This document shows, piece by piece, positions 13,801-61,018 of a stretch of DNA of 64,000 bases. The translations under genes and the position numbers were made by a program. The notes under the pieces were generated by a model. The model searched no databases. It was not told where the DNA came from and saw only the letters and a program-made list of their open reading frames with translations. How positions within the stretch are numbered: the stretch's first letter is position 1; each line of letters starts with the position of its first letter. The stretch spans positions 186,001 through 250,000 of the forward strand of contig CAIMRY010000019.1 of NCBI GenBank assembly GCA_903843965.1. The letters are read 5' to 3'. Source of the DNA: an uncultured delta proteobacterium. Its GTDB lineage: Bacteria; Desulfobacterota; Desulfovibrionia; Desulfovibrionales; Desulfovibrionaceae.

Positions 13801-13818
13801 CCCTGTTGGTTTCAAGCA

Positions 13819-17397: not shown

Positions 17398-17418
17398 GCT
17401 CTTCTCCTTATTGCGTTG

Positions 17419-18465: not shown

Positions 18466-19313
18466 TGTGCGCCTCCCGGCCCCATGTTCGGCGCGGGCGC
18501 GGCATAGCGTTTGGTGAACTTCTCGCGCTCGACCGCGGTCCAGAACCCGCTCACCGGCACCACGCCAGCGTTTATCGCCGCCCAGTCTGGGTGCTTGGCG
18601 ATGAGCGCCAGGGCCTCGGCGGTGCCGAAGTCCGGATCGGTCGGGTGGAGAGCCCCGTAGATGCGCGAGATGAGCTCGAAATCCTGCGGGTTGTCCAGGG
18701 TCCAGCGGTGCTGCGACGCGTCTGGCCCCTGGCCCACCTGGAGCAGGTCGAACTCCTCGGGATGGGTGTGCATGTAGGGCACCACGTTGCTCTCGTTGAG
18801 GCGGCGCTCCTCGTCGCCCAGGGTGGCCGCGATGGCCGCGATGCGCCGGAAAGCGTCGATGTGGAAGACCTCGGCGTCCAGGCCCAGGGGCAGATATCTG
18901 GCCAGCGTGTTGCTGGCGTAGTCCAGCCGACGCCCGGCGGCGCGCTCGGCCTGAAAAGCCTCCAAGAGCTGCGTGACCACGCGGCGGTCGCACAGCGGCG
19001 AGTCGCCGCCAAGGCGCACCACGGCCTCCATGCCGAAGCGCTCGGCCGCTCCGATGCAGCGCGCCAGCACGTTGTCCTCGTCGCCGCGGAAGCAGGCCGC
19101 GCCCAGGCGCGCGCAGAATTCCTCCAGCACGTCGTCGGCCGGGTTCGTGGTGGTGGCCACGACCAGGCCGCGGTCCACAGGCACGTCGGCGAGTCGGCGC
19201 AGCATGTGCTCCAACACTGGCACCCCCAGGATGGGCAGGAGCACCTTGCCCGGCAGGCGCGTGGAGCCCATCCGCGCCAGAATGATGATGCCTGAGGACA
19301 GCCGCGCGCTCAC
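18462..19313 (-). CDS. SpsF-type cytidylyltransferase, second copy
   Basis: Protein of 283 aa. IIILARMGSTRLPGKVLLPILG is the CTP_transf_3 nucleotide-binding signature; LVVATTTNPADDVLEEF and VVRLGGDSPLCDRRVV complete the core. A C-terminal extension (about residues 185-283) with RWTLDNPQDFELISRIY is typical of longer SpsF proteins. It starts at GTG in GTGA overlap with the radical SAM gene upstream and ends in GTGA overlap with the oxidoreductase. It differs in length and sequence from the copy at 3999-4676, so it is unlikely to be a recent duplicate and may activate another acid sugar. Confidence 0.85.
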   Translation of the reverse strand: MSARLSSGIIILARMGSTRLPGKVLLPILGVPVLEHMLRRLADVPVDRGLVVATTTNPADDVLEEFCARLGAACFRGDEDNVLARCIGAAERFGMEAVVRLGGDSPLCDRRVVTQLLEAFQAERAAGRRLDYASNTLARYLPLGLDAEVFHIDAFRRIAAIAATLGDEERRLNESNVVPYMHTHPEEFDLLQVGQGPDASQHRWTLDNPQDFELISRIYGALHPTDPDFGTAEALALIAKHPDWAAINAGVVPVSGFWTAVEREKFTKRYAAPAPNMGPGGAQ

Positions 19314-20560
19314 AGCCCGGCCTTCCGGACAAAGGCGGCATAGGCCTCGGCTTGGGGTGCGTCGCCCGCGCCGCAGCTGGCCGCTTCAAGCAGCCGGTAC
19401 AGTCGGCCGAGCAACGCCCTGAAGGCCTGCTGCTCTGCGGGCGAGAGGTCCGCGCAGTTGCCCTGGGCCACGGGGCGCATGCTGGCCACGAAGTCCAGCA
19501 GGTCCACGTAGCGCTCAACGCCCAGGAGCAGGCGGTGGAACACGTGCCGGGCCAGGCCCAGGGCCAGGCGCGCGGCCTCGGCGGGCTCTTCGGAGACAAG
19601 CGCCTCTGCCTGAGCTAGGCGCGCCTCGGCCGCGTCCACGCCTAAGAGCGAGTCCTCCTTGATGGGGAAGAACAGGATGTCCGGGAAGTCGCGCGGGAAG
19701 TCCTCCGGGGCGCGGCGCGAGTAGTTGTCGCAGCGCGTGTACACGATGCGCAGGCGGTCGACCCCGTGCTCGCGCGCCAGGCGCTGGTACTTGAGCAGGT
19801 CCGCGTCGGAGTCGTTGTAGTCGAACATGATGTACTGCCAGATGATCTGCGGGCTGGCCGGGCCGCTGCGCGCTGCGGCGACCTGGGCGGTGAACTCCAG
19901 CACGCGCGAAAGCCTGCCGTGCCTGCGGTAGCGTCCGTAGGTCTTCTGGTCCGTCGCGTCAGCCGCGATCTTGAGCTTGTCCAGGCCGCAGGACACGATG
20001 TCCGGGCTGAAGGACGCGTTGCCGTTGGTGCTGAGCAGGATGTCGCCGCCAAGCTTGTCCTTGAGCGCGGCGATCATGGCCCAGACATCGGGATTCAGCG
20101 TGGGCTCGCCCACGCCGCAGATGTTGCCCTTGCCGAGCGTGTAGCCGCGCGCGGCGAAGTCGTCCGCCAGGCGCCGGATGGTCTCAAGCGGCAGCATCCG
20201 GACTTGGCCGGGATCGTGGCGCGCCTGGCCGTGGCACCAGCGGCAGTCGAGGTTGCAGGCGTAGGCCGGCTCGAAGTGCAGCCATTCGAGTCGGCGCTCG
20301 CCGTCCGACAAGTCCGGGGCGTCGGCGTCCACGTCAAGGTAGGTGCACTGCTCGCACACGCCCGGGAAAGGCGCCTTGCCCTGGGCCATGGCCGCGCGGA
20401 TGCGGGTGAATGCCGGCGACTCGAAGACGTCCGCAGCGATGTCCCCGGGCAGGTTTCCGTGGTCGAGCCTGCCCAGGGTCACGGTCTCGCCCGCGCTGCA
20501 GTAGCAGGGCAGGCGCCCGTCGGCCCGCAGGTAGAGCCCGCGCGTCATGATGCAGTTCAC
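19310..20560 (-). CDS. Radical SAM protein with SPASM-like cysteines ahead of the core
   Basis: Protein of 416 aa. The radical SAM motif CNLDCRWC lies at residues 102-109, with NICGVGEPTLNPD and ILLSTNGNASF after it. Unusually, the first 75 residues contain a SPASM-like pattern: Cys3, then GRLPCYC (Cys19, Cys21), a SPAFTRIR segment and CEQC (Cys69, Cys72). In most SPASM enzymes this element follows the core. The C-terminal 120 residues are helical. Start GTG overlaps the GNAT stop as GTGA. The context is amino-sugar genes; the substrate is unknown. Confidence 0.83.
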   Translation of the reverse strand: MNCIMTRGLYLRADGRLPCYCSAGETVTLGRLDHGNLPGDIAADVFESPAFTRIRAAMAQGKAPFPGVCEQCTYLDVDADAPDLSDGERRLEWLHFEPAYACNLDCRWCHGQARHDPGQVRMLPLETIRRLADDFAARGYTLGKGNICGVGEPTLNPDVWAMIAALKDKLGGDILLSTNGNASFSPDIVSCGLDKLKIAADATDQKTYGRYRRHGRLSRVLEFTAQVAAARSGPASPQIIWQYIMFDYNDSDADLLKYQRLAREHGVDRLRIVYTRCDNYSRRAPEDFPRDFPDILFFPIKEDSLLGVDAAEARLAQAEALVSEEPAEAARLALGLARHVFHRLLLGVERYVDLLDFVASMRPVAQGNCADLSPAEQQAFRALLGRLYRLLEAASCGAGDAPQAEAYAAFVRKAGL

Positions 20561-40549: not shown

Positions 40550-40759
40550 CTATTTGAGCGCAAAGCCGCGCAGGGCGAACAGCCCGCCCATGACTTCCAC
40601 CGTCGTATCGCCTTCCGCGAGGGTGCCTTTGTTCTTTTCGTAGATCTTCTGCATGTCGTCGAAAACCCTGCCGAGAATCTTGCTCCAGGAGATTTTCCCC
40701 AGCTCGGGGTGGTGCGGACCGTAGGCGAACTTCGGGAGCACGTACTTCGGGTCGTGCAC
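40550..40759 (-). CDS. Small hypothetical protein
   Basis: Protein of 69 aa from GTG 40759, with GGAG seven bases upstream. The sequence is well mixed and looks protein-like (LPKFAYGPHHPELGKISWSKIL, IYEKNKGTLAEGDTTVEVMGG), with normal codon bias. No cysteine motif, signal or membrane segment. The frame remains open upstream, so the true start could be earlier. It lies 50 bp downstream of a GT2 gene on the same strand. I do not recognise it. Confidence 0.55.
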   Translation of the reverse strand: MHDPKYVLPKFAYGPHHPELGKISWSKILGRVFDDMQKIYEKNKGTLAEGDTTVEVMGGLFALRGFALK

Positions 40760-40809
40760 GATGCAGCTCCGGTTGGCCGCATCAGCATTCCTGGGCCGCG
40801 CCTCCGGAT

Positions 40810-41652
40810 TCAGCGCTGCGCGGCAGAAGATCCAGGCCCGGCCCCGGCCATGTGCGCCCGCGCCCGCCGGACCAGCGCCTTGGACTCCTCCAGCAGGCGG
40901 TTCCAGCTCGTGGGCGCGTGGATGTCCACCTCGCGGCGGGCATGGTCGCGCACGTTCATCAGCACGCGCGGGATGTGGACGAATCTCGCCCCGCCCTCGG
41001 CAAAGCGTTGGAACAGCTCGTGGTCGTGGGCCAAAAGCGCCTCGTCATACAGGCCGAAGCGCCCGTGCAGCGCCGTGCGGTAGAGCTTGGCCACGCCGCA
41101 CAGGTACCAGTCGCCGAAACAGCGCTCAAAGGAGTAGTCAGGCAGGGCGAAGCGCCGCACCCAGCGGCCCGCGTCGTCCACGATGGCCATGTCGGCGTAG
41201 ACGAAATCCGCCCCGGCCTGGAGCACGGCCGCCATTTCCGAGACCATGGACGGCAGGAGCGCGTCGTCGGCGGGGACGTACGTGCAGAACTCGCCCGTGG
41301 CCGCGCCAAAGCCGGTGTTCAGGGCCGGGGCCAGGCCCTTGTTGCGCTCGTGCCGGATGACGCGCAGGCTGCGCCCGGACTGGGGAAAGCGCGGGTGCGC
41401 CACGCGCTCGATAAGGTTGTTCTCGGCGTCGAAATGCGCGGCGTAGGACACCACGTCCTCTTTCAGGGTGCGCTCGAACGCGGCGATGGCCTGGGCCGTG
41501 TGGTCTGTGGAGCCGTCGTCGACCAGGATGATCTCAAGCTCGGGATAGTCCTGGAACCAGATGGAATCCAGGCAGATGGGCAGGTACTGGGCCTGGTTGT
41601 ACACCGGCACCACCAGGGAGACCTTGGGGCAGGGGGCGTTGGGGCGGGTCAC
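40810..41652 (-). CDS. GT2-family glycosyltransferase
   Basis: Protein of 280 aa. VSLVVPVYNQAQYLPICLDSI begins the GT-A fold, IILVDDGSTDHTAQAI supplies the nucleotide-binding DDGS, and CTYVPADDALLPSMV is the DxD-like metal site. HNKGLAPALNTG-like spacing (RNKGLAPALNTGFGAATGE) is typical of GT2. GTG start with AAGGAG six bases upstream. It is the distal gene of the secretion/glycosylation operon and may extend the lipid-linked glycan used by the STT3 protein 2 kb upstream. Confidence 0.88.
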   Translation of the reverse strand: MTRPNAPCPKVSLVVPVYNQAQYLPICLDSIWFQDYPELEIILVDDGSTDHTAQAIAAFERTLKEDVVSYAAHFDAENNLIERVAHPRFPQSGRSLRVIRHERNKGLAPALNTGFGAATGEFCTYVPADDALLPSMVSEMAAVLQAGADFVYADMAIVDDAGRWVRRFALPDYSFERCFGDWYLCGVAKLYRTALHGRFGLYDEALLAHDHELFQRFAEGGARFVHIPRVLMNVRDHARREVDIHAPTSWNRLLEESKALVRRARAHMAGAGPGSSAAQR

Positions 41653-41767
41653 GGCGGTTCTCCTTGGCTGCGGCTGGCCAGGTCCTGTCGGGCTGGCCAG
41701 GCCGGTCGGACATTGACGAACCCGGCCTGCGGCTCATGCGCCTCATCGGACGCCCAGGGCTTTTGGG

Positions 41768-42652
41768 TTAGGGCGTTCTGGCGCGGTGCGCGGCTGCGTT
41801 GCCAAGCTCCAGCCTGCGCAGCTGCCCGCCGTTTTGCAGCAGCACCTGCCCTGGCTCCACGGAAATGAGCGTCCAGCCGCGCGCCTGCTCGCCCAGGCGC
41901 AAGGACACCGCCGCCCCGTCCACCTGGAGCATGGCCAGGGGCCGCTCCCCGCCCGCAATGACGCCCACCAGCAGGAAGCCCTCCAGGCCCAGGCGCGGCA
42001 CGGGCTGGGCCGCAGGGGCCTTGGCCTCGACTTCAGAAGTATTGGCCGCAGACGTTTTGGACGCAGGAGTTTTGGCCGCTGGCCGGGCGCTGGCCTGGCC
42101 CGCCGGAGACTTCGTTGCCCCTGCCGCAGCCTGCGCAGACGCCTCGGCAGCACGACCAAGGCCGCTGGCCCCGGGCGGCGCAGCGTTCGCCCCTGGCGAG
42201 ACGGCCTGGCCCTGCACGCTGTGGCCGCCGGAGAGGGGGGCCGTGGCGCTGATGTTGGGGGGAGCCTGGGAACTGGCCTGGGGGTTCTGCGGGGCGGAAT
42301 ACGGCGAGGGACGCGGCGCGGTCGCCCCCTGGGGCGTCACGCTGGTGTCCGCCTGGGCAAAGGCGGCCTGGGCGGGCGGGCCCGGTCGGCCTGGGGTCTG
42401 CGGAACGACCACGGGGGCGGGCGGCTGTCCCAGGGGAAAGAACGGCGAGCTCTCCAGCTTCAGCACGTTGCGCTCCAGGATGATGCGCACAGGCGACTCC
42501 TCGCCGTAGGCCTGGCCCTGGGCGCGCAGCTCCTCGGGCGGGCGCAAAAAGGGCGCGGGCCTGGGCACGAAGCTTGTGGCCAGGTAGGCCAGGCCCAGGC
42601 CGATGGCCGCAGGCAGGGCCAGCTTGGGCAGCGTGCGCCAGACGATCTGCAT
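41768..42652 (-). CDS. Type II secretion GspC/PilP-like protein
   Basis: Protein of 294 aa. A single N-terminal membrane helix (LALPAAIGLGLAYLATSFV) is followed by VRIILERNVLKLESSPFF, a Pro/Ala/Ser-rich linker of about 130 residues, and a small C-terminal domain LGLEGFLLVGVIAGGERPLAMLQ with EQARGWTLISVEPGQVLLQ, the homology region that docks GspC on the secretin. The long low-complexity linker suits spanning the periplasm. It is co-oriented with the secretin-like gene but separated from it by STT3 and an aminotransferase. A PilP-like pilus role is an alternative. Confidence 0.7.
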   Translation of the reverse strand: MQIVWRTLPKLALPAAIGLGLAYLATSFVPRPAPFLRPPEELRAQGQAYGEESPVRIILERNVLKLESSPFFPLGQPPAPVVVPQTPGRPGPPAQAAFAQADTSVTPQGATAPRPSPYSAPQNPQASSQAPPNISATAPLSGGHSVQGQAVSPGANAAPPGASGLGRAAEASAQAAAGATKSPAGQASARPAAKTPASKTSAANTSEVEAKAPAAQPVPRLGLEGFLLVGVIAGGERPLAMLQVDGAAVSLRLGEQARGWTLISVEPGQVLLQNGGQLRRLELGNAAAHRARTP

Positions 42653-42677
42653 GCCTTCCCCCCGCCCCTGCCGCAGC

Positions 42678-43850
42678 CTACCCGGCCAAGGCTGCGGCGA
42701 TCTCCTGCTGGACCTCCGCCGTGAGGTAGGGGTGCATGGGGATGCTGAAGATGCGCGCGGCTAGGGCCTCGCTCACCGGCATGGCGCCCGGCCCGTAGCC
42801 CAGGTTCGCGAAGGCCGGCTGCAGGTGCAGGGGCACGGGGTAGTAGATGCTCGACGGCACCTGGGCCCTGGTCAAACGGTCCAGCAGCTCCTGGCGGTGG
42901 GCCGTGCTCTCGGCCTGGATGCAGTACTGGGCGTGGACCGAGACGTTGCCGCCCGGCACCACGGGCAGGGTCAGGCCGGGAATGGGGCCGAGGAGCTTTG
43001 CGTAGCGCGCGGCCACGTCCTGGCGCAGGCGCACCTCGTCCTCGAAGATTTCGAACTTGGCCAGGAGCACCGCAGCCTGCATGGTGTCCAGCCGGCCGGT
43101 GATGCCCAGGCGCACGTTCTGGTACTTGTCCGCGCCCTGGCCGTGCACGCGGATGGAGCGCAGAAGCTCCAGCAGCTCCGGGTCGTCGGTGAAGCACATG
43201 CCGCCGTCGCCATAGCAGCCCAGCGGCTTGGCCGGGAAGAACGAGGTGCAGGCGATCTGGCCGAAGCTCCCGGCCCGGCGCGCGACGCCGGACAGCTCGC
43301 TCGTGGCCCCGAAGGCCTGGGCCGCGTCCTCGATGACAAAGAGCCCGTGCGCCGCCGCCACGGGCAGGATGGCCGCGTAGTCGGCCAAAAGGCCGAAGAG
43401 GTCCACCGGGATCACGGCCTTGGGCGTAAGGGCTCCGGCGTGCGCGGGCAGCGGGTGCAGGGCCGGGTCGTCGGCGCGCACGGCGCGCACGGCCAGGTCC
43501 AGCCTGGCGGGGTCCATGTTGCAGGTCGCCGGGTCCACGTCCACGAACACCGGGGTCGCGCCCAAGAGCGCCACCACCTCGGCCGTGGCCATGAAGGTGA
43601 AGGGCGGGCAGAACACCGCGTCGCCCGGGCCGACCTTGAGGGCCATCAGGGCCATCATCAGCGCGTCCGTGCCGGAAGCGCAGCCCACGGCGTGGCGCGT
43701 GCCGCAATATCCGGCCAGGCGCTCCTCCAGACGGGCCACGTCAGGCCCGTTGATGAACGCGCCGGACGCGAGCACGGCCTGGATGCCGCGCTCCACCTCC
43801 GCCGCAACGCGGCGGTGCTGGGTCTTCAGGTCGATGAAGGGAATGCTCAT
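42678..43850 (-). CDS. DegT/DnrJ/EryC1-family aminotransferase, WbpE/PglE-like
   Basis: Protein of 390 aa. IPFIDLKTQHRRVAAEVE is the typical opening of WbpE/DegT members; GCASGTDALMMALMAL, LFVIEDAAQAFGA and TSFFPAKPLGCYGDGG (with the PLP lysine) are intact, and the C terminus has SSIYYPVPLHLQPAF. It makes a UDP- or dTDP-amino sugar. Encoded in ATGA overlap directly after the STT3 gene, it probably supplies a diacetamido sugar for the lipid-linked oligosaccharide, as PglE does for PglB in Campylobacter. It is the third DegT enzyme in the window and not part of the nonulosonate island. Confidence 0.9.
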   Translation of the reverse strand: MSIPFIDLKTQHRRVAAEVERGIQAVLASGAFINGPDVARLEERLAGYCGTRHAVGCASGTDALMMALMALKVGPGDAVFCPPFTFMATAEVVALLGATPVFVDVDPATCNMDPARLDLAVRAVRADDPALHPLPAHAGALTPKAVIPVDLFGLLADYAAILPVAAAHGLFVIEDAAQAFGATSELSGVARRAGSFGQIACTSFFPAKPLGCYGDGGMCFTDDPELLELLRSIRVHGQGADKYQNVRLGITGRLDTMQAAVLLAKFEIFEDEVRLRQDVAARYAKLLGPIPGLTLPVVPGGNVSVHAQYCIQAESTAHRQELLDRLTRAQVPSSIYYPVPLHLQPAFANLGYGPGAMPVSEALAARIFSIPMHPYLTAEVQQEIAAALAG

Positions 43851-46108
43851 TGTGTGAAGGCCTCCGTCTGCCCTTGCGGCTCCTGGGCCGGGGGCAAAAC
43901 CTCGTAGATGCGCACCAGGGGAAAGCCCTCGTGCACGAGTTTGAAGTATCTCGACACCTCGGCCCGGCCAGGGTCGCCGATCAGCAGCTGCACGGCCATG
44001 CTGTTGTAGGCCAGGTCGTCCATGAGTTTGACGCTCTTGGCCACGTCATTGATGATGAGATGCGGCGCGACCGGATTCATGGGGAAGAGCACGCGCCTGA
44101 CGCCCTTCTCGGCCAGCAGGTCCACGCTCTTGATGCCGATGGGCGCGCTGTTCGAACGGAAGACCATCAGGCCCTGGCCCTGGTCGACATTGAAGGCCTC
44201 ATTGATGTCCTGGGTTCTGGCGTAGGTTCCCTTGCCGTTCACCAGATCCCAGCTGCCGTAGAAGCCCATCCAGTAGAGCAGGCCCACGTCCTCCCAGCAG
44301 ACCACCAGGTACTGGGTGGGCGGGCGCTTCATGGGCTGGTCCGACACGGCCAGCAGGGCCAGGGACTGCTGCACCTCCGGCGCCGAGAGCTTGTCCCAGC
44401 GGCGCGCCGGGTCCTGGTTCAGGCCCGCGCTCATGTTGATGACCTGGGCCGCCTGGCGCGGGGAGGAGGTCATCAGGGCCAGGGCCGTGGGATAAATGTC
44501 GCGGCCCGCGTGCCGGCCGCCGTCGGTGGGGGTCATGCGCTCGGCGTAGTACTGGGTGGCGTAGCCGAAGTCCCACCAGGTCCAGACCGAGGCGTCCTTG
44601 GGGGCAAAGGTCTTGAGCTGCATCAAGGCCTCGGCGTGGGGCGGAGCCAGCACCGGGGTTGGCGCCAGGTCGCGGTAGGGCCCCACATAGCCCAGCAGGC
44701 AGCCGCCGGCCAAAAGGATCTGCACCAGGGTCAGGACGTTCTCCCGCGCGCCGGTGCGGTGCAGAATGGCCTTGGCCAGCCAGTGCACGCCCAGGCCCAG
44801 GCCCAGGGCCATGGGCGGGCCGCCGAACATGGCGAAGCGCACGCCCATGAACAGGCTGCCCACGCCCAGCACCGTGAGCGGCAGCAGCAGCATGAACGCC
44901 GGGCGCAACGCCAGGACGCACACCAGCCCGAGCCCGCTAGCAACGCCAACCCAGGGCGCGACCGAGGTTCCGGCGAGGAAGGTCGTCCAGTCGACCACGT
45001 TCTTGGCCTCGCGGATGCTCTGGGTGATGCCCGGATACACGGGACCGGGAACAGCCCCCACCCCCGCGCCGGACTTGGCCGCGTCGGCCACGGGCTTCAG
45101 GTAGCTGAACACCTTGTCGACATAGGGCCCAAGGGGCACCAGCATGTCGCAGAACACGGCCAGAAAGATGAGCGCCACCAGCCAGACCCAGGGGTGGTCC
45201 AGCACGAATCCGAGCCGCTGCGGCCTGCGCCAGAGCAGCACGACCAGGGCGATGGCCGCGATCAGAACGCCCACCTCAAAGGGAGTCACGACAAAAACCA
45301 CGGTGGCGTAGCGCCGTATGCCGGCGTAGGCCACGAAGCCATAGACCACAAGCAGCTTCAGGGCGTCCAGCCTGCGGCCTTGGCGGCCGGTGACTGCGGC
45401 CAGCGCCAGGGCCACCCAGAACAGGGCCACGCCGATGATCCGGATGTCGTCGTGGGCGAAGTGCGCCACCCGCGCCACCAGGCCGTAGGCCAGGGCCAGC
45501 CAGGGCAGCGCAGCCGGAAGGGGCTCGGCCTCCTGGCGCTCCTGGGGCGTGGCGCACCAGCCGCGCGTGCAGCAGAACGAGAGCAGGTGCGCCAGCATGA
45601 AGCCAATGACCAGGGGCATGAGCAGGGTGAAGGGGTCTGTGTCGAAATAGCCCAGGCGCGAGCGGTAGTAGAAGCCCGGGGCCAGGGCCCCGATGCAGCC
45701 TGCGGCGATGGCCGCCCTGCGCCCGCCCAGCAGCCAGCCCCAAAAGGCCGTGCCCACGGCCACCAGGCTGGCCAGGTAGGCCGGCGTCCAAAAGGCGACC
45801 TTCCACAGGGGCGCGCCAGACACGTGGCTTAAAAGCCACGCCAGCAGGGACATGCCGTAATTGGTGAACGAGCCCACGCCCTTGGCCCCGGCCAGCCAGC
45901 CGTAGGAGTCATGGGTGGCCAGGAGCTTCTCCCCGCCGACCATGAGACCCGGACCGGCCCAGTTGCCCGCGTCCATGAGACGGATGGCCAGGGTCACCCC
46001 GTAGCTCAACAGAGCGACGACCACGAGCCATTTCCAGTCCTCCCGCCAAACCGGGCGTTCGTCCAGGAACTCGCTTATCTGCGCACACTTTTGAGAAAAG
46101 GCCTTCAT
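43847..46108 (-). CDS. pglB: STT3/PglB-type oligosaccharyltransferase
   Basis: Protein of 753 aa, about 13 membrane helices then a soluble domain. It transfers a lipid-linked glycan to Asn in proteins. Catalytic and ligand motifs are visible: first-loop Asp67 (THDSYGW), the DxD-type Asp156-x-Asp158 in GYFDTDP, a SIRE tetrad (Glu367) equivalent to the TIxE/SVSE motif, and WWDFG (511-515), a variant of the WWDYG acceptor-recognition motif. The size and layout match bacterial PglB. It is flanked by a secretin-like gene upstream (16-bp gap) and an aminotransferase coupled by ATGA, so glycan supply and transfer are co-expressed. Acceptor proteins are unknown. Confidence 0.93.
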   Translation of the reverse strand: MKAFSQKCAQISEFLDERPVWREDWKWLVVVALLSYGVTLAIRLMDAGNWAGPGLMVGGEKLLATHDSYGWLAGAKGVGSFTNYGMSLLAWLLSHVSGAPLWKVAFWTPAYLASLVAVGTAFWGWLLGGRRAAIAAGCIGALAPGFYYRSRLGYFDTDPFTLLMPLVIGFMLAHLLSFCCTRGWCATPQERQEAEPLPAALPWLALAYGLVARVAHFAHDDIRIIGVALFWVALALAAVTGRQGRRLDALKLLVVYGFVAYAGIRRYATVVFVVTPFEVGVLIAAIALVVLLWRRPQRLGFVLDHPWVWLVALIFLAVFCDMLVPLGPYVDKVFSYLKPVADAAKSGAGVGAVPGPVYPGITQSIREAKNVVDWTTFLAGTSVAPWVGVASGLGLVCVLALRPAFMLLLPLTVLGVGSLFMGVRFAMFGGPPMALGLGLGVHWLAKAILHRTGARENVLTLVQILLAGGCLLGYVGPYRDLAPTPVLAPPHAEALMQLKTFAPKDASVWTWWDFGYATQYYAERMTPTDGGRHAGRDIYPTALALMTSSPRQAAQVINMSAGLNQDPARRWDKLSAPEVQQSLALLAVSDQPMKRPPTQYLVVCWEDVGLLYWMGFYGSWDLVNGKGTYARTQDINEAFNVDQGQGLMVFRSNSAPIGIKSVDLLAEKGVRRVLFPMNPVAPHLIINDVAKSVKLMDDLAYNSMAVQLLIGDPGRAEVSRYFKLVHEGFPLVRIYEVLPPAQEPQGQTEAFTQ

Positions 46109-46124
46109 GCCGTTTCCGCCTGCC

Positions 46125-47900
46125 TTAAGGTTTCACATCACTTACGCTCCGGCCCGGGCCCGGTGAGGACTCCCCGTCCCGGACCACCCGCCCCGTGAGC
46201 ACAATGCCGATCCGCCGCGACCCGTGCTGGGGCCCCCGGCGGGAAAACAACGTCCAGCCCGCGCTGGCCTCACCCTGAGATCCGGCTTGGAGCCCCTGCG
46301 CCGGGCCCGGCTCCTTGGCCAGCAAGAGCAGCAGCGCGCCCTCGGGCATGCGTGCCTCGGCCCACTGGGGTCCGGCGCCGGGGTCGGCGTCTTCCAGGCG
46401 CACGCGCACAGACACCTGTCCGCCCTCCGCGTCCTCCAGGGACGTGAACACCAGCCGTTGGCTCTCCACCTCCGGCCCTGTGCCCGCCGGATTTGTCCCC
46501 GCCGGATTTGCTCCGGGCGGATTTGGCCGGGTGATGCTCAGGCGCATCTCGCCGCCGTCCGGGACTACGGCCCTGGGCCGGGCCAGCACCCGCAGCTCCG
46601 GGTCCGCAGCCAGTTGCGCAGCCAGGGCGTCCAGCCCGGTCGGCGCGGCCATTGGGCCAGCAGCCTCTTCCGCCGCCAATACGCCCGCCAATACGCCCAA
46701 CGCGCTTCCGCGCAGGGCCAGGCCCAGGCCCACGGCCGCCTGGTCAAAACCGCTGCTCCCGGCTGGCGAAGCCGACGGCGGATTCGCCACCGCCGCAGCA
46801 CCTCCGGCCGCGCCCATCCCCGCGCCCATCCCCGCGCCAGGACTGACGGACAAAATCTCCCGGCCGGAAGCCCGCGCGGGCAGCTCCAGCACCAGGGCCT
46901 CCAGCAGCACCCTGGGCCGCAGCTGGTCCAGCTTCTCCACCACGCGCTCCGCCTGGGCCATGAACTCCGGCTCGGCCAGGACCACCACGGCTCCCGCCTC
47001 CGCGTTCACGCGCACGTTGCCCAGCCCCTTGTCCGCAGCGGCCAGCCCGCGCAGCACCCCGGCCACCTTGTCGGCCTTGGCGTAGCGCAGCCGAAAGGCC
47101 CGCAGCGCCGGGGCCGCGCGTCCGCCCTCGTCAATCTGCGAGAGCAGGCGGCGGGCCTGGTCCACCTGGTCCGCGCCGCCAGCCAGCAGCACCGAATTGC
47201 TCCACTCCAGGGCCAAAACCACCGGAGCCGGGCCGGGCAGCCCCCGGAAATGCATGCCCAGCTTGCGCGCGGCCAGCCTGGCCTCGGCCCGCTGCAAGGG
47301 CGCAAGCTCAAGCACGGCCCCGGCGGACGCGGCATCCAGGGCCGCCAGCACCGCGCGCGCGCGCGCCACCCGCTCGGCCCTGTCGCGCAGGACCAGCCAG
47401 TGGCCCTGGGCGGCGACAGCCACCTGGCCGTCGTCCGAGCGCAACCCCTCCAGCACGCGGGCTGCCTGGGCCAGGTCCAGCCCCGGGGCCAGCCGCTGGG
47501 CCAAAATCTGCGTGGGCCCGGCCACCTGGACCGGGTGCTTGGGGTCGGGCAGCAGGTACCAGACCTCGCCGCGCGGGATGGCGATCAAGCCCGCAACGCC
47601 CAGCACCAGGGCCTGCATCTCCGCCAGTTCGGCTTCGCCCACGCTCTGGCGCGAAACCAGGGTCACCGTGGCATCAGGCAGCTGGTCCACGCGGTACACC
47701 GGGTTCTTGCCCGAGAACTGACCCATGAACAGAAGAAAGTCCTTGAACGCCGCACCTTCCAGCCCGATCCGCAGCCCCACGGCCCCGGTCTCCGCCCCGG
47801 CCCCGGCCGCAGGCGCGGCCAAAAGGGTCGGCCCGGCCAGCAGGCAGATCAGCAGCGCGGCAATGAGGCCGCAGGTTCCCGGAGCTCCAGGGCGTCCCAT
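46125..47900 (-). CDS. Secretin-like GspD-family protein, degenerate C-terminal domain
   Basis: About 591 aa. A signal peptide precedes AAGAGAETGAVGLRIGLEGA. Repeated N-domain-like units follow (FKDFLLFMGQFSGKNPVYRV; LAQAARVLEGLRSDDGQVAV; KADKVAGVLRGLAAADKG), as in GspD. The secretin part has ELRVLARPRAVVPDGGEMRLSI and GQVSVRVRLEDA, but the usual VPxLGDIPxLG segment is not visible, so pore formation is uncertain. Two short Ala/Gly/Pro-rich insertions are encoded by 15-bp-like repeats. ATG 47900 has GGGGAG seven bases upstream. It lies between the GspN-like and STT3 genes. Confidence 0.62.
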   Translation of the reverse strand: MGRPGAPGTCGLIAALLICLLAGPTLLAAPAAGAGAETGAVGLRIGLEGAAFKDFLLFMGQFSGKNPVYRVDQLPDATVTLVSRQSVGEAELAEMQALVLGVAGLIAIPRGEVWYLLPDPKHPVQVAGPTQILAQRLAPGLDLAQAARVLEGLRSDDGQVAVAAQGHWLVLRDRAERVARARAVLAALDAASAGAVLELAPLQRAEARLAARKLGMHFRGLPGPAPVVLALEWSNSVLLAGGADQVDQARRLLSQIDEGGRAAPALRAFRLRYAKADKVAGVLRGLAAADKGLGNVRVNAEAGAVVVLAEPEFMAQAERVVEKLDQLRPRVLLEALVLELPARASGREILSVSPGAGMGAGMGAAGGAAAVANPPSASPAGSSGFDQAAVGLGLALRGSALGVLAGVLAAEEAAGPMAAPTGLDALAAQLAADPELRVLARPRAVVPDGGEMRLSITRPNPPGANPAGTNPAGTGPEVESQRLVFTSLEDAEGGQVSVRVRLEDADPGAGPQWAEARMPEGALLLLLAKEPGPAQGLQAGSQGEASAGWTLFSRRGPQHGSRRIGIVLTGRVVRDGESSPGPGRSVSDVKP

Positions 47901-48001
47901 GCGATTGCTCCCCACGGCCGCAAGGCTTTTCCCCCGCACAGCCAAGACTTCAGGTGCATGTCAATCGCGTGTTTCTATCCGGTTTTGCGGCGGAGGGCAA
48001 T

Positions 48002-48829
48002 TCACTCCGGCAGGGCGGCCTGGCCCAGGAAATCGCCCAGAATGCCCGAGGAGTTGAAGGGGAAGGTTTCGCGTCCGCGGATGACCTCGCCGCTGACGAC
48101 GTAGGGCGAGCGCAGCAGCGACTCCGGCTTGAGGGCCGCAGTGCCCTCGGCGCGCACCTGCACGGGCTCGCGCAGGGTGAAGGAGCGGATGCGCAGGCTG
48201 CCCTCCTGGTAGGCCAGGGCCAGAGCAGCGTCGCCCAGCCAGAGGTTGCCGGGCAGCGTCAGGGAGACGCCGCGCAGGTCCAGAAAGCCCTTTTCCAGCA
48301 CCCTGGTCTGGCGCAGGAACACGCCATCGCTGCGCACGTCCAGGCTGCCCTGGATGTCGCGGCGGCCCAGGCAGCCCAGGTTGACCTGGCCCTGGATGTC
48401 GAAGGCGCCGGAATCGAAGTACACCAGCCGGGCCTCGCGCCCGCCGCTGTCCACGCGCACGGTGCAGAGCGGGGTCACGCCCAGGCGCACGTCCACCCAC
48501 TGCATCCGGGGCGAAACGTTCCAGCCCGGCGCATCCACCGCAAAGCCGTTGACGCGGAAGCCGAGCGGCCCGGCGCGGTCCACGTTCTGCCAGGTCATGC
48601 GCAGCTCCGGGTGGCTGCCGGCAAAGTGCCGCAGCCCCAGGTGCCAGATGGTGTCCCAGGGCAGGTAGAGCACCAGCCCGGCCAAAAGCCCCGCGCACAG
48701 CGCCGCGAACCCCGCCCCGCCAAGAATGCGCCAGCCGCGCGGGCTGCTGCGCTCCGGGCACTGGGGCGCGTCATTATTCGGCGGGATGTCTGTCGGCGTG
48801 TTCTGCCGGGTGCCCTGCTGTGTGCTCAT
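48002..48829 (-). CDS. GspN-like type II secretion protein
   Basis: Protein of 275 aa. A cytoplasmic N terminus, one membrane helix (GAGFAALCAGLLAGLVLYLPW), and a beta-rich periplasmic domain with DVRLGVTPLCTVRVDSGG, GQVNLGCLGRRDIQGSLDV and YVVSGEVIRGRETFPFNSSG, the pattern of GspN/AsmA-like proteins. GspN supports type II secretion assembly in some bacteria. It is encoded in the order L, M, N, D and sits about 100 bp upstream of the secretin-like gene. Assignment rests on topology and position rather than a strong motif. Confidence 0.65.
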   Translation of the reverse strand: MSTQQGTRQNTPTDIPPNNDAPQCPERSSPRGWRILGGAGFAALCAGLLAGLVLYLPWDTIWHLGLRHFAGSHPELRMTWQNVDRAGPLGFRVNGFAVDAPGWNVSPRMQWVDVRLGVTPLCTVRVDSGGREARLVYFDSGAFDIQGQVNLGCLGRRDIQGSLDVRSDGVFLRQTRVLEKGFLDLRGVSLTLPGNLWLGDAALALAYQEGSLRIRSFTLREPVQVRAEGTAALKPESLLRSPYVVSGEVIRGRETFPFNSSGILGDFLGQAALPE

Positions 48830-48844
48830 CTGCGCCTTTGGCCC

Positions 48845-49339
48845 CTAGTGCGACAGGACCAGCTCCAGGTCCACGCGCTTGTCGTTGTCCGAGCGCACGG
48901 AAATGTGCCCCGACTCGGTGATCAGCCCGGCCTGCAGGCGCAGGTCGCGCAGAACCTCCACCAGCTCGCGCAGGCTCAAGCCCCGCGCCGTAACGGACAG
49001 CCGCTCCGGCCCCTGGAGGCCCGGCAGGGGCAGCACACGCAGGCGCGCAGGGTCAATGCCCACGCCCTGGGCCACCTGCTCCGCAGCCTGGAGCGGAGGG
49101 GCGTCGCCCAGGGTCATCATCCGCCCGCGCAGGTCCATGGCCTCCGCAGCCATGGGGGCCACCATGACGTAGGTCTGGCCCGCGTCCTCGTAGGCCTTTT
49201 CCGCCACGCGGGTAAGGGCCGAGAGCACTGCCCAGGCCGCCAGCAGCCCCACGCCCCAGGCCAGCACCAAAAGCCGCCACAGGCGGCGCTGGGCCTTGGC
49301 CGTCAGGTGCGTCAGGCGCGCCATCCACCGCCAGGTCAC
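48845..49339 (-). CDS. GspM-like bitopic inner-membrane protein
   Basis: Protein of 164 aa: basic N terminus, one hydrophobic helix (LWRLLVLAWGVGLLAAWAVLSAL), a helical stalk and a small C-terminal domain (LSVTARGLSLRELVEVLRDLR, LELVLSH). That layout matches GspM, which pairs with GspL. The start is GTG in GTGA overlap with the upstream GspL-like gene, a coupling typical of L-M pairs. Sequence similarity alone is too low to be sure, so the call depends on gene order. Confidence 0.5.
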   Translation of the reverse strand: MTWRWMARLTHLTAKAQRRLWRLLVLAWGVGLLAAWAVLSALTRVAEKAYEDAGQTYVMVAPMAAEAMDLRGRMMTLGDAPPLQAAEQVAQGVGIDPARLRVLPLPGLQGPERLSVTARGLSLRELVEVLRDLRLQAGLITESGHISVRSDNDKRVDLELVLSH

Positions 49340-49878
49340 TGGTCCACCTTTGGCGGCGCGGCGCGGTTCCGGGCCTTTACGGAAAGTTCAAAGCGCACCG
49401 GAGTCTTGAAGGCGTCGACCGTGCGCAGGCTGAAGGTGAACAGGCTCTCTGTGGCCAGGGCCGACTGGTACAGCTCCAGGTCCTTGGCGCTCTGCGCCGT
49501 GCCGCTGACCACGCCGCTTTGCGCGGCCATGGAGACCTCGGTGATGCGCAGCCCTTCCGGCGCGCGGCGCGAGAGGGCCGCCAGAAGCTCCACAAGATCC
49601 AGACGCTGCGAGGCCTCGGCCCGGAGCTTGCCCAGCTCGAACTGCAGCCGCCCGTAGGGCGACCGGCCCGGATCGCCGCCCAGGGCGCGTTTGTAGACCT
49701 CGTGCACGGCCTGCTCCAGCCGCTGGGCCCGGGAATATTCCTGCCACCAACGCACCATCTGCCCGGCGCAGAACAGCGCCCCGGCCACGGTCACGGCCAG
49801 AAGCATCCGGCCATAGCGGCGGTGCTCGGACTCCGGGAGGCACTGGTGCCCTGTGTTGGTTTCGCCTTGGGTGCTCAT
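49336..49878 (-). CDS. GspL/PilN-like protein lacking the cytoplasmic actin-like domain
   Basis: Protein of 180 aa with a short cytoplasmic tail (about 23 residues), one membrane helix (RMLLAVTVAGALFCAGQMVRWW), a coiled stalk and a ferredoxin-like periplasmic domain (LDLVELLAALSRRAPEGLRITEVSM, ELYQSALATESLFTFSLRTVDAF). It resembles PilN or the C-terminal half of GspL. Full GspL has a large cytoplasmic domain that binds GspE; here it is absent or encoded elsewhere. The gene is coupled by GTGA to the GspM-like gene. Confidence 0.5.
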   Translation of the reverse strand: MSTQGETNTGHQCLPESEHRRYGRMLLAVTVAGALFCAGQMVRWWQEYSRAQRLEQAVHEVYKRALGGDPGRSPYGRLQFELGKLRAEASQRLDLVELLAALSRRAPEGLRITEVSMAAQSGVVSGTAQSAKDLELYQSALATESLFTFSLRTVDAFKTPVRFELSVKARNRAAPPKVDQ

Positions 49879-49919
49879 GTCATCTCGGCCTGGCTGCTTG
49901 ATTCATCTGGCTGATTGGT

Positions 49920-50840
49920 TCATCTGTCCGCCGGTTCATCTGGCGTGGTGTCCATGGGCCCGCACGGTAGTTGATTCCCGCAGCCCGGTCCAGGGTTCTG
50001 CGCCGCCCCCACCTGCCGGTCCAGCCGGACCTGCCCGCGCAGCACCGGGATGAGCCCGCGCGAATAGCCCTCGGCCCAGGGCTCGCCGCGCAGCAGGGCC
50101 CGCGCCCAGGCCCTGGTCCAGGACGGAAAAAAGCCCGGGTTGTCGACCACGATCTGCGCCTTGTTCACGCCGTCCTGCTGAAACACGGTCTGAAAATAGC
50201 CCAGGCCGTGCATCTGGTAGGTGACCAGCGCCCCCGTAACGCGCACGAACCGCGCGCCCAGCAGCGCCGCCTGGACCCAGAAGTCCCAGTCCTCATACCC
50301 CGTGACGCTGCGGTAGCGCGCCCCGCGGTCATAGACCGCGCGCCGCATGAGCGAGGCCGCGTGCATGAAGTTCTGGTTGGCCAGAAGAAGAGGGCTGTAG
50401 TCCGGCGGCGTTATCTCCAGGCGCTGGCCGCCGGTGTCCACGAAATATCCGGTGTAGGCCACATCCGCGTCTGCCAGGGCGCGCAGGCAGCTGGTCAGGT
50501 AGCCCGGCAGCAGCTGGTCGTCCGGGTCCAGGCAGAGCAGGTGCTCCCCCTGGGCCAGGGCCAGTCCGGCGTTGCGCACCGGGCCGGGCCGCCCCATGCG
50601 CGCCAGGCCCAGTGTGCGCCAGGCGCCGAAGGGCATGCGGCTCAAGAGCGCGCGCGCCGTGTCCAGGGACCCATCGCTGCTCTCGTCGTCCACAAAGACC
50701 ACCTCCAGCTTGAGGGGGTCGATGTCCTGAACCAGCAGCGAGTTGAGGCACTGCGGCAGGAACCGGGCGTAGTCGTGGCAGGGGATGACCACGCTCACCA
50801 GCAGACGGCCCGGCGCCGGGCAATTCTTTCCCGCAGCCAT
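49920..50840 (-). CDS. GT2-family glycosyltransferase
   Basis: About 306 aa. VSVVIPCHDYARFLPQCLNSLL and LEVVFVDDESSDGSLDTA form the GT-A nucleotide site, HLLCLDPDDQLLPGYLTSCL contains the DxD metal site, and GYEDWDFWVQAALLGARF is a conserved-looking acceptor-side ED-WDFW element. ATG 50840 is preferred because GGAGG lies eight bases before it, versus two for ATG 50846. It is the first gene of the secretion/glycosylation operon, 101 bp from the divergent hybrid kinase. With the GT2 gene at the other end it may build the glycan for STT3. Confidence 0.88.
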   Translation of the reverse strand: MAAGKNCPAPGRLLVSVVIPCHDYARFLPQCLNSLLVQDIDPLKLEVVFVDDESSDGSLDTARALLSRMPFGAWRTLGLARMGRPGPVRNAGLALAQGEHLLCLDPDDQLLPGYLTSCLRALADADVAYTGYFVDTGGQRLEITPPDYSPLLLANQNFMHAASLMRRAVYDRGARYRSVTGYEDWDFWVQAALLGARFVRVTGALVTYQMHGLGYFQTVFQQDGVNKAQIVVDNPGFFPSWTRAWARALLRGEPWAEGYSRGLIPVLRGQVRLDRQVGAAQNPGPGCGNQLPCGPMDTTPDEPADR

Positions 50841-50941
50841 GCTCATGCCCTCCGGCCCGGTCGGGCATTGTGCCGCCGCTGCAAGGGTGCTATCGTCCCC
50901 GCATGCAGCGCATACGTGCGTTCAGCCAGGGGTGCTCGGGC

Positions 50942-57980: not shown

Positions 57981-60914
57981 CTACCACCCCACCGGCAGCC
58001 GCGCCTTTTGTCCGGCCTTGTTGGAGAACAGCACGTGCCCGTTCTCCCGGCCATAGAGGTACAGGTCGCGGGTCACAGCCACGTCCTGGCGGCAGTATGT
58101 GGCGATCTCGTCCAACCGCCCTTCCGCCCACCACTTGAGGGCTTGCAGGCCGTCCGCGCTCTTGCCCACGTTCAGCGTGGCCTGGGCCAGGTTGTCCAGT
58201 TTGAGCCTGTAGCCCAGGCGCTCATGCACGTGGGCCAGCATGTCCAGCGTGGGCAGGCTGGCGTAGGCGAAGGGGTGTACCCCGGCCAGCACGCCGTAGT
58301 CAAACCGCAGGATGTTGAAGCCCACCACAAGATCGAATGATTTCAGGCGTTCGACGAGAAGCGGGATCTCGTGCTCCTGGTAGTCCGTGAACGCGTCCTC
58401 GCCGGAGTCGTACAGCACGGCGATGGACACGCCCATGAGGTCGGGCCGGGTCCAACCGCCCACCTCGGCGGCGCTGCGGCGCGTCTCCACATCGACCACG
58501 GCGAAGCGTTTCGGGATGATCATGGCGGGCATGCCGGTCAATTCGAGGCCGGGCAGCGTTCCTTCCTTGGGCATGGCGGTCTCCTGGGCTTTTGAAATTT
58601 CTGGCGTGATTTCCGGTGAGATATCCGCTCCGGGCGCGCCGGTGGACAGCTCGCGCAGCAGGAACAGGGCCGCGGCCTTGTCGATGGGCCGGTTGCCGCT
58701 GCCGCACTTGGGCGAGTGCACGCAGGAGGGGCAGCCCAGCTCGCAGGGGCAGTCGCGGACGACCGCGAGGGTGCGGTCGAGCAGTTCTTCCGCACTGCTG
58801 AAAGCTTCTCTGGTCAAACCCGCGCCGCCGGGCATGCCGTCGTAGATGAACACCGCCGCGCCGCCGGTTTGCGGGTGCAGGGGCGTGCTGATGCCGCCCA
58901 GGTCGTTTCTGTCCGTCATCACCAGCAGCGGCAGGATGCCGATGGCCGCGTGTTCGAAGGCGTGGATGCCGCCCATGAAGTGCAGGTACTGGTCTTCCGC
59001 TTTCCGGCGGGCCGCGTCCGGCACATCGAACCAGATGCCTTCGGTCTCAAAGACCGACGGGGGGAGATCCAGCAGCACCATGCCCAGCAGATTGCCGCCG
59101 CGCGTGCTGCGCTTCTCGTAGCCGGTCACCTGCTCCGTGACCTTGAGCCGGGCCAGGGTGACGCGGGTGCCGAAGACCTCGCGGCGGTCGAAGATTTCGA
59201 GGATTTCCGTATCCTTGCTGCTGCGCACCCGGGTGAAATAGCCCACGCGGGCCGCGCGGACCTTGGCCGTGGCGCCGGGCAGGTCCAGGCTCTCCACCAG
59301 CCAGGTGCGGCCCCGGTGCAGGTACACCGCGCCAGGGTGGGTCTCGCGGCAGGCGCGCAGGCTGTCCACCGCGCCGATGACCGCGCCCGTGTCCGCGTCC
59401 TCGATGGAAATCTGGCTGCCCGCGCCGCGCAGGTCCACGTCGCGCTGGGGGCGCTTGCGCGGGGAGATGATGTCGCGGCCATCCGCGCTGTAGTAGAGCT
59501 TGCCCGCGCTGATGAGCCCGTCCAAGGCCGCGCGCACCCCGGGCGATTTGAGGTACGGCTCGCCGGGTTGCAGGGGCAGCTCGGCGGCAGCGCAGATGAG
59601 GTGGCGCGGCAGGATCACCGGGTTCTCCGGGTTCAGCACGGCGCGCTCCGCCGGGCGGGCGAAGAAATCCTCGGGGTGGCGCATGAAGTACTGGTCCAGC
59701 GCGTCCTCCTGGGCCACCAGCACCACTGCCGACTCCTGCTGGGCCCGGCCCACGCGTCCGCCGCGCTGCAAGGTGGCCATGACGCTGCCGGGGTAGCCCA
59801 CCAGGATGCACACGTCGAGCCCGCCGATGTCGATGCCCAGCTCCAGAGCGCTGGTGCTGATGACCGCCAAGAGGTCGCCCGAGGCCATGCGGCCCTCGAT
59901 CTCGCGGCGCTCCTCAGGCAGAAATCCCGCGCGGTAGGCGCTGATCTTGTCGCGGTAGTCTCCGCTCTTTTCGCTGGCCCAGAGCGCGATGAGTTCGGTC
60001 ATGCGGCGGCTCTGGGCGTAGACGATGGTTTTCAATCCGCGCGAAAGCGCCGCCTGCAACAACTGAATCGCCGCCGTGGCGGGCGAATCCTCGGGGTTCA
60101 GGAAGACCATGTGCCGCGCCCCGGTCGGCGCGCCGGACTGCGTCACTGCCACGGGCTCGATGCCGGTCAAGAGTTGGCACAATTCCGCCGGGTTGCCCAC
60201 CGTGGCCGAGCAGAACACAAACACCGGGTCCGAGCCGTAGTAGCGGCAGATGCGCTGCATGCGCCGCAGCACCTGGCTCATGTGCGCGCCCAGCACGCCC
60301 CGGTAGGTGTGCACCTCGTCGAGCACGATATGCGTGAGCGTGGCGAATACCTGGGCCCAGGTTCCGTGGTGCGGCAGGAGCGAGAGGTGCAGCATCTCCG
60401 GGTTGGTCAGGATCAGGTTGGGCGGCTTCTTGCGTATCTTGGCACGGGCCGAGGGCTTGGTGTCGCCGTCGTAGATGGCGGCGGTGGGCCGCAACGTCGG
60501 GGACAACCCTTCCGGCAGTCCCTCCAGCAACTCGTTGAACCCGCGCAACTGGTCCTGGGCCAGGGCTTTCAAGGGGTATATCGCCAGGGCCCTGGAATCG
60601 GGACTGGCCAGCACGGCCTCGATGATCGGCAGCTGGAAGGCGAAGGTCTTGCCGCTGGCCGTGGGCGTGGCCACCACCACGTGCCGCCCGGCGCGCACCA
60701 GGTCCGCCGCCAGGGCCTGGTGGCTGTACAGCGCGTCTATCCCTCGCGCGGCCAGCACCTCGCGGATGGCCTTGGGCCAGGGGCGCTTTGGCTCCGCATA
60801 CTCGGCCTCGCGTCCCGGCACCAGCCGGTGGTGGCAGACCTGCCTGCCCAGGCGTTCGCTGGCCAGCAGCGCGGCGATGTATTCGGCGACGGGGGAGGTG
60901 TCATGGGGCGGCAT
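57981..60914 (-). CDS. MrfA-like DEAD/DEAH helicase fused to MrfB-like exonuclease
   Basis: About 977 aa. Residues 80-470 form a superfamily 2 helicase: ATPTASGKT (Walker A), LDEVHTYRG (DEVH), FCSATVGNP, STSALELGIDIGGLD and QRGGRVGRAQQ. A middle DUF1998/MZB region has four cysteines (CPCELGCPSC, then KCGSGN, about 721-737), as in MrfA/YprA and Hrq1. Residues from about 804 form a DnaQ/RNase H-like nuclease (FAVVDVETRR, GFNILRFDYGVL, YCRQDVAVTRDLY), matching YprB/MrfB. In Bacillus MrfA and MrfB are separate proteins repairing mitomycin damage. ATG 60914 is chosen without a clear ribosome site. It is divergent from hicA. Confidence 0.87.
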   Translation of the reverse strand: MPPHDTSPVAEYIAALLASERLGRQVCHHRLVPGREAEYAEPKRPWPKAIREVLAARGIDALYSHQALAADLVRAGRHVVVATPTASGKTFAFQLPIIEAVLASPDSRALAIYPLKALAQDQLRGFNELLEGLPEGLSPTLRPTAAIYDGDTKPSARAKIRKKPPNLILTNPEMLHLSLLPHHGTWAQVFATLTHIVLDEVHTYRGVLGAHMSQVLRRMQRICRYYGSDPVFVFCSATVGNPAELCQLLTGIEPVAVTQSGAPTGARHMVFLNPEDSPATAAIQLLQAALSRGLKTIVYAQSRRMTELIALWASEKSGDYRDKISAYRAGFLPEERREIEGRMASGDLLAVISTSALELGIDIGGLDVCILVGYPGSVMATLQRGGRVGRAQQESAVVLVAQEDALDQYFMRHPEDFFARPAERAVLNPENPVILPRHLICAAAELPLQPGEPYLKSPGVRAALDGLISAGKLYYSADGRDIISPRKRPQRDVDLRGAGSQISIEDADTGAVIGAVDSLRACRETHPGAVYLHRGRTWLVESLDLPGATAKVRAARVGYFTRVRSSKDTEILEIFDRREVFGTRVTLARLKVTEQVTGYEKRSTRGGNLLGMVLLDLPPSVFETEGIWFDVPDAARRKAEDQYLHFMGGIHAFEHAAIGILPLLVMTDRNDLGGISTPLHPQTGGAAVFIYDGMPGGAGLTREAFSSAEELLDRTLAVVRDCPCELGCPSCVHSPKCGSGNRPIDKAAALFLLRELSTGAPGADISPEITPEISKAQETAMPKEGTLPGLELTGMPAMIIPKRFAVVDVETRRSAAEVGGWTRPDLMGVSIAVLYDSGEDAFTDYQEHEIPLLVERLKSFDLVVGFNILRFDYGVLAGVHPFAYASLPTLDMLAHVHERLGYRLKLDNLAQATLNVGKSADGLQALKWWAEGRLDEIATYCRQDVAVTRDLYLYGRENGHVLFSNKAGQKARLPVGW

Positions 60915-60971
60915 GGAGGGAGTGTAGGGGAAATGGGGGTGGGGGTCGAGGGGGGTAAGGGCGAGACGGAA

Positions 60972-61018
60972 ACACAACACAAGTGTTGACTCTGCTTCTT
61001 GCAACACTTATGTTGTGT
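60972..61018. promoter_or_regulatory. Twin palindromic operator ahead of hicA
   Basis: Two 17-bp half-sites face each other: 60972-60988 and 61002-61018, inverted with one mismatch and a 13-bp spacer. Each is itself palindromic (CAACAC-AA-GTGTTG; CAACA-CTTA-TGTTG). The right-hand site ends two bases before the hicA ATG, so a bound antitoxin would block transcription or initiation. It also lies between hicA and the divergent helicase. Confidence 0.75.

Follow-up and report, generated by a model that had tools for sequence, protein, structure and literature searches.

The window analyzed here, a stretch of 64,000 nucleotides from an uncultured, sulfate-reducing delta proteobacterium of the Desulfovibrionaceae (GenBank assembly GCA_903843965.1, contig CAIMRY010000019.1, positions 186,001 to 250,000 of the forward strand), carries nine minus-strand open reading frames that run from position 50846 down to 40810 and encode, in this order, a GT2 glycosyltransferase, GspL, GspM, GspN, a GspD-like protein, an STT3/PglB oligosaccharyltransferase, a WbpE-like aminotransferase, GspC, and a second GT2 glycosyltransferase. 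In our judgement the chances are about even that this run is a type II secretion system (T2SS) stripped to C-L-M-N and a pore-less GspD, joined in one operon with an oligosaccharyltransferase and a sugar-nucleotide aminotransferase, and used for motor-free handling of lipids or glycoproteins. The pattern spans whole genera and links bacterial N-glycosylation to type II secretion, two systems that usually are studied apart. Each of the nine genes is open and was also chosen by a codon-usage gene caller, in agreement with the first-pass annotation of this stretch as a one-strand run of gsp-like genes with STT3, an aminotransferase and two GT2 genes; that annotation had placed the GT2 genes inside the run, and they sit at its two ends. 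The small overlaps it had reported were read directly from the sequence (GTGA at the L/M junction, ATGA at the STT3/aminotransferase junction). A sequence artefact was considered and rejected, as the reading frames are conserved throughout the genus. Domain support from Pfam and NCBIfam is strong for STT3, DegT, the GT2 enzymes and Secretin_N, weak for L, M and C, and nearly absent for N.

The STT3 gene (43847..46108, minus strand, as are all nine) matches the STT3 core (PF21436, 1.8e-16) and N-terminal (3.4e-9) domains, and its product aligns with the Campylobacter PglB structures in a profile search (4.8e-53). Its residues D67, R149, D156, D158, E367, R424 and the WWD motif at 511-513 align with the residues known to be catalytic in PglB. 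With its STT3 domains, WWD motif, catalytic acidic residues and arginines, the protein belongs to the STT3/PglB family and is predicted to transfer glycan to asparagine. In domains and catalytic residues it thus resembles the N-glycosylation enzymes of the Campylobacter pgl system and of Desulfovibrio, for which PglB activity has been described (PMC4894442); unlike its counterpart in Campylobacter, it lies outside any pgl cluster and sits with T2SS platform genes. The adjoining aminotransferase (42678..43850; DegT, 1.9e-101) had been called WbpE/PglE-like. This is corrected to WbpE-like: WbpE (3nu7, 345 bits) is the closest solved sugar aminotransferase with a named function, and a higher score (368 bits) was obtained against 4qgr, a DegT family structure with no named function.

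The four inner-membrane T2SS genes C, L, M and N are all present in the window. GspL (49336..49878; PilN, 4.4e-5; NCBIfam GspL, 1e-9 and 2.5e-7, both below cut-off) is a protein of 180 amino acids, against about 370 in its full-length relatives, and matches only positions 208-366 of the 367 in the full-length GspL model. In an alignment of short and full forms the periplasmic half is common to both, and the cytoplasmic, ATPase-docking half is missing in the short form; the earlier identification of this gene therefore is right as to identity, albeit only for the membrane helix and periplasmic half. GspM (48845..49339) matches PF04612 (T2SSM) at 0.0052 and has a homologue in the T2SS operon at locus L210 (4.3e-10). 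GspC (41768..42652) consists of a membrane helix, a proline-rich stretch and a C-terminal T2SSC match (PF11356, 5.8e-5, below cut-off; NF041515, 8.2e-6); a PDZ domain had no match in it, and the GspC of the L210 operon has one at 4.5e-7. For GspN (48002..48829) the only domain match is from NCBIfam (0.0044), and the assignment draws on synteny and predicted fold. The GspN structure model (predicted local distance difference test, pLDDT, 85) has one membrane-type helix followed by a long, mostly beta periplasmic part, which is consistent with, rather than proof of, an AsmA-like beta-groove fold. Profile searches of solved structures returned no relative for L, M or N and, for C, only GspC at E 0.49. 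The weak assignments of L, M, N and C are now firm because their homologues sit in T2SS operons together with E, D, F or pseudopilins. The four proteins are predicted to form a complex.

As for the remaining parts, the GspD-like gene (46125..47945) encodes periplasmic N-domains with three Secretin_N stretches (7.2e-22) and no recognizable secretin barrel: the secretin domain PF00263 was not found in it, so that its first-pass identification stands for the N-domains but not for a full secretin. In the genus, PF00263 is found in none of seven GspD-like proteins, Secretin_N in all seven, and a weak N0 match in six. A DVG secretin motif pattern, which proved too strict, matched 5 of 7 control secretins and none of the seven GspD-like proteins of the genus; a second such pattern matched only 1 of 7 controls. 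Fisher p-values from this comparison disregard common descent and were given no weight. Across the whole window genome, which is listed as 100% complete, matches to T2SSE, T2SSF and PF00263 are confined to contigs C3 and C44, where the T2SSE and T2SSF matches lie in pilus and Tad loci. From its gene order, C44 is read as a putative Tad/Flp locus. C3 encodes a PilM-like protein, a PilQ secretin, an N-methyl pilin and a further two ATPases, and is read as a probable type IV pilus-like locus. No match to the pseudopilin G or K models was found in the window and 20 kb to each side. A survey of PF03934 (T2SSK) across the order was discarded for this purpose, since it returned mostly long frames that, by length, resemble UvrC-type HhH proteins. 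The first-pass statement that E, F and pseudopilins lie outside the window can thus be widened for E and F to the genome, where only pilus and Tad loci match, and for G and K to the 20 kb flanks. Of the defining features of a T2SS, GspE, a full GspL, the secretin and GspF are lacking and C-L-M-N is retained; the locus is best called a stripped variant. By itself it cannot be a working T2SS, since it lacks the motor, the domain to which the motor docks, and the secretin pore.

An ordinary, complete T2SS whose E, F and pseudopilin genes simply lie apart from this locus in the same genome is very unlikely. Splitting does occur in some relatives (in G021, L-M-N with pseudopilins lies about 60 kb from D-E-STT3), but the ATPases, F proteins and secretins of the window genome, complete as listed, are all of pilus or Tad type, and the GspE model of this T2SS lineage matches in none of the 15 genomes of the genus. 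The other genomes of the genus contain 1 to 6 T2SSE matches each, taken collectively as pilus-type ATPases. In one of them, the Humidesulfovibrio-group metagenome-assembled genome (MAG) G003, a contig of 9.7 kb (G003:C64; L230:2147-7902) carries a distant E-F-G-K set, which may be a second T2SS or a binning error.

The truncation of GspL was followed through 288 genomes of the family, with a threshold of our choice (E <= 1e-180) for the GspE of this lineage. The full-length GspL model matches 79 genomes: 21 over nearly the whole length (20 from position 1-3, and G273 over 7-349), 52 in truncated form (from about position 190-213 to 366 of 367), and 6 weakly (G094, G134, G226, G227, G331 and G332; long frames, E 1e-4 to 1e-8), which were dropped. 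The 21 whole-length genomes are the same 21 of 288 in which the lineage's GspE is found, and that GspE is found in none of the 52. The 52 belong to three genera: all 15 genomes of the window's genus, 36 of a second genus (Pseudodesulfovibrio), and G229. Direct reading of the short L covered the genus and the inspected neighborhoods; for the other genomes the short form was taken from the model range, which could miss a strongly diverged N-terminal half. N is kept in 51 of the 52. The stripped form is a natural experiment: a subcomplex was kept after the motor and pore were lost, and its role outside secretion can be asked directly. G229 looks intermediate, with short L, M and N and without that GspE, its GspD still having PF00263 (7.4e-26, against 6.6e-47 and 2.9e-51 in two other relatives). 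Between its GspN and full GspD lies a gene for a 324-amino-acid LPG_synthase_TM protein (L209:8860-9834; PF03706, 1.1e-33), a homologue of which (274 bits) is found near STT3, on the other strand, in L108.

These counts bear on the proposal that the platform drives secretion or piliation with E, F, pilins and secretin borrowed in trans from the type IV pilus-like locus on C3, which we consider unlikely. C3 does offer ATPases, F, a secretin and a pilin. The ATPase-binding half of GspL, however, is unmatched in all 52 truncated-L genomes, and C3 appears to have a platform of its own, as the order of its PilM-like gene and of the two short genes ahead of the secretin reads like that of a pilus platform. 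Moreover, its E scores 429 bits, against 781-990 for the GspE of the 21 genomes, with models built from the same four proteins.

Within the window's genus STT3 is present in 14 of 15 genomes, its own included; the genome without it, G007, is 82% complete. In all 14, STT3 adjoins L-M-N, either directly or after the GspD-like gene (in G012 across two contigs), and the gene order is L-M-N-(D)-STT3-aminotransferase-C. The GspD-like gene is present in 7 of the 14, and in the remaining 7 STT3 comes next after N; the first-gene GT2 is found beside GspL only in the part of the genus that bears the GspD-like gene. All 13 loci of relatives retain the L/M overlap (the 13th, L055, by gene caller), and the STT3/aminotransferase overlap is present at each of the 12 junctions seen. 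Row L055 of our alignment A6, which has unknown letters and a broken frame, was left out of alignment A7. Mean column identity is highest among the platform proteins for GspL (78%), followed by M (71%), N (67%) and C (49%). Pairwise ratios of nonsynonymous to synonymous substitution (dN/dS, simple Nei-Gojobori) are 0.18-0.33 for L, 0.26-0.50 for M, 0.27-0.64 for N, 0.37-0.59 for D, 0.25-0.34 for STT3, 0.23-0.49 for the aminotransferase and 0.41-0.46 for C.

From these figures it seems decidedly unlikely that the platform genes are a functionless, decaying remnant kept by chance beside glycosylation genes. The losses of motor, barrel and PDZ domain would suit such a remnant, as would the GspD-like gene missing from half of the 14 genomes, a GspC that is short in some relatives, and an STT3 split into two frames in one draft genome (G008). 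Against it stand the dN/dS values of 0.18-0.64 over seven genes, the identity of GspL, the absence of stop codons inside L or N in the genus, and a truncated L that recurs in three genera.

In a quick tree of 74 STT3 sequences, including that of the window and taken from 78 named STT3 loci (five were too short and left out), the window's STT3 falls in a clade of 29 rows (SH-like approximate likelihood ratio test, SH-aLRT, 97) apart from the other sampled Desulfovibrionales STT3. T2SS parts are nearby in 25 of the 29, among them five with only an aminotransferase and a short GspC-like gene; the four exceptions are L109 (the locus of G229, which has its L-M-N-D on a separate contig), L115, L116 (with an F gene on the opposite strand) and L143. 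Of the 45 rows outside the clade, none has any of L, M, N, C, D and F in its neighborhood; one has an E-like match (L141) and two have a pilin-like match (L133 and L165). The stripped loci, five Pseudodesulfovibrio-type loci and L109 together form one clade of 21 rows (SH-aLRT 99). Two Anaerolineales (Chloroflexota) MAGs place their STT3 among those of Desulfovibrionales on a long branch (L124, L130), by transfer or misbinning. One genome of the genus also has a second, very divergent STT3-like protein of 833 amino acids away from gsp-like genes (L073, G010:C1, about 8319-10823).

The complete relatives indicate what the machine may have served before it was stripped. The GspN model matches in 80 of 348 genomes of the order, and 20 neighborhoods were read; among those listed, T2SS operons with pseudopilins, a GspL of about 370 amino acids, M and N occur in several genera. 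At L210 the order STT3-F-E-D-C-N-M-L is uninterrupted. In the seven neighborhoods read from the second genus only short L, M and N stand together, followed at L205 by STT3 and aminotransferase. Among the 21 genomes with the lineage's GspE, STT3 lies within 1.5 kb of it in 17 and within 4.6 kb in one more, the remaining three having it elsewhere or on other contigs. Conserved adjacency of STT3 and gsp genes, which the first-pass annotation had proposed to look for, accordingly holds for all 14 genus genomes that have STT3 and for these 17 of the 21 family genomes with full-length GspL and GspE. T2SS genes with STT3 are seen at L210:868-11435, at L057:5148-13582, and at L211 (G097).

A cargo search covered 267 family genomes (G273, one of the 21, had no listed match). 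In 15 of the 21, a cargo-model match that extends through the last position, i.e. the C-terminal tail, starts within 0.5 kb after STT3. All five cargo tails read are Ser-rich, with Gly-Cys, hydrophobic and basic stretches, and their Cys is invariant. N-X-S/T sites number 26 in the G021 cargo (12.1 +- 3.0 in shuffled sequences) and 17 in that of G338 (10.1 +- 2.7 when shuffled); three more cargo proteins have 22, 23 and 28 (not shuffled). NCBIfam returned no match for the G021 cargo, whose tail is presumably JDVT-like. MrtJ-like proteases are found in several complete relatives; in G021 MrtJ exceeds its cut-off (80 against 75 bits) at L057, the locus of the tagged cargo. At L057, MrtJ and tagged cargo with sequons share some 8.5 kb with the T2SS genes and STT3; such loci are a candidate system for the surface display of glycoproteins in the Desulfovibrionaceae. 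Myxosortase is reported to process such tags, and the T2SS to display the proteins (PMC11980579). The complete relatives resemble these MYXO-CTERM and JDVT-CTERM (MrtX, MrtJ) sorting systems in their MrtJ-like proteases and tailed cargo, and differ from them by adding STT3 and sequons in the cargo; no paper joining myxosortase with an oligosaccharyltransferase was found in the open literature searched.

From these relatives we infer an ancestral T2SS for N-glycosylated, lipid-anchored surface proteins, with STT3 and cargo encoded beside the machine genes. In the periplasm, STT3 would have N-glycosylated proteins that were exported by Sec and carried a C-terminal tag; MrtJ, a protease of the myxosortase type, would have processed the tag; and GspN with C-L-M would have handled the lipid-bearing protein, which the T2SS would have displayed on the surface. 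The first-pass suggestion of a machine dedicated to glycoproteins fits such relatives well, given the adjacency of STT3 and the sequon-bearing cargo; it is not supported for the window, whose locus cannot by itself secrete as a T2SS. The companion suggestion, that the machine itself is glycosylated, was rejected: N-X-S/T sequons number 0, 2, 0, 0 and 2 in the window's D, N, M, L and C, and with machine parts that are not sequon-rich it has no support from sequence.

In the window's lineage the E, L docking domain, F and barrel of this T2SS presumably were lost. At present the aminotransferase would supply an amino sugar for a lipid-linked glycan, and STT3 would transfer the glycan to N-X-S/T sites of periplasmic proteins. 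C-L-M may anchor the putative groove protein GspN without ATP-driven secretion, and GspN may shield a lipid or lipoprotein partner or pass it on, this partner probably being a glycoprotein or the glycan carrier; the complex, its substrate and its handling of lipid are inferred. More specifically, and only tentatively, the motor-free C-L-M-N could be an inner-membrane station, derived from a T2SS and no longer secreting, where STT3 glycosylates and the GspN groove holds or passes on the lipid anchor. In published work, XpsL binds the ATPase XpsE, the XpsC-L-M complex persists without E, F or D, and XpsL complexes diminish when C or M is absent (PMC11981180); PulN co-purifies with PulC, PulL and PulM (PMC12802150). 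The set retained in the window therefore can stand alone and includes a lipid-cargo component. The window shares C, L, M and N with T2SS that have GspN (Pul, Acinetobacter Gsp), and differs from them by having no E, cytoplasmic L or secretin barrel, and by STT3 and an aminotransferase in the operon. The role of GspN was reported only recently: it is predicted to be AsmA-like and is required for surface lipoproteins in other species (PMC12802150).

This role could also suit a different reading, which we find rather doubtful: that L-M-N(-C) is an independent, motorless envelope module for handling lipids or lipoproteins, and that STT3 and the aminotransferase perform general periplasmic N-glycosylation, sharing the operon only by common ancestry. 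In the second genus, 18 of 36 genomes keep truncated L and N without a strong STT3 (7 weak, 11 with none listed), so the platform is not solely for STT3, and its linkage in the window may be partly historical. The linkage is found, however, in every genome of the window's genus that has STT3, with 4-base overlaps at every junction seen, and the adjacency of N and STT3 is kept in 6 second-genus genomes. These 6 are among the 18 with a strong STT3, of which 11 have it elsewhere (some on other contigs, in drafts) and one, G305, has no listed place.

Besides these 18 platforms without a strong STT3, several points weigh against the stripped, motor-free T2SS that we prefer. The identity of GspN draws on synteny and predicted fold, the structure searches being indecisive (no Foldseek match below 0.001; top VIA-align rows porins and OspA; a Vps13 fragment at Z 5.1). 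The structure model of the GspD-like protein (mean pLDDT 50.7) is too poor to judge and was not used. Tagged cargo was found in none of the 15 genus genomes, and neither was MrtJ above cut-off (the window genome has one match of 27 bits, below cut-off), which sets the genus apart from the sorting systems named above. The absence of GspE refers to this lineage only, the E of the distant set in G003 scoring 432 bits against about 900. In G023, outside both groups, a different GspE and a full GspD lie next to an STT3 that is more divergent; the 1e-180 threshold excludes this genome, whose GspE reaches 625 bits against an NCBIfam cut-off of 630. Finally, the pattern may be one ancestral loss: the 52 genomes are related, and so are not independent. 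The G023 locus (L069:9553-16874) also suggests that the link of STT3 to T2SS may be older or may have arisen twice.

The GT2 glycosyltransferases that flank the run match PF00535, at 5.9e-20 for the first gene (49920..50846) and at 7e-28 for the last (40810..41652). A scan of the locus for promoters and terminators gave no usable promoter (one promoter-like site, on the opposite strand, with 0.5 expected) and 10 terminator-like sites on both strands, with 4.8 expected. Elsewhere in the window, at positions 12988-19599, a separate sugar cluster is suggested by another DegT aminotransferase (16105-17397) together with a Gfo/Idh/MocA oxidoreductase and a PIG-L deacetylase, and positions 57981-61007 encode a helicase that has an MrfA Zn-binding domain and, in its C-terminal part, exonuclease-like matches.

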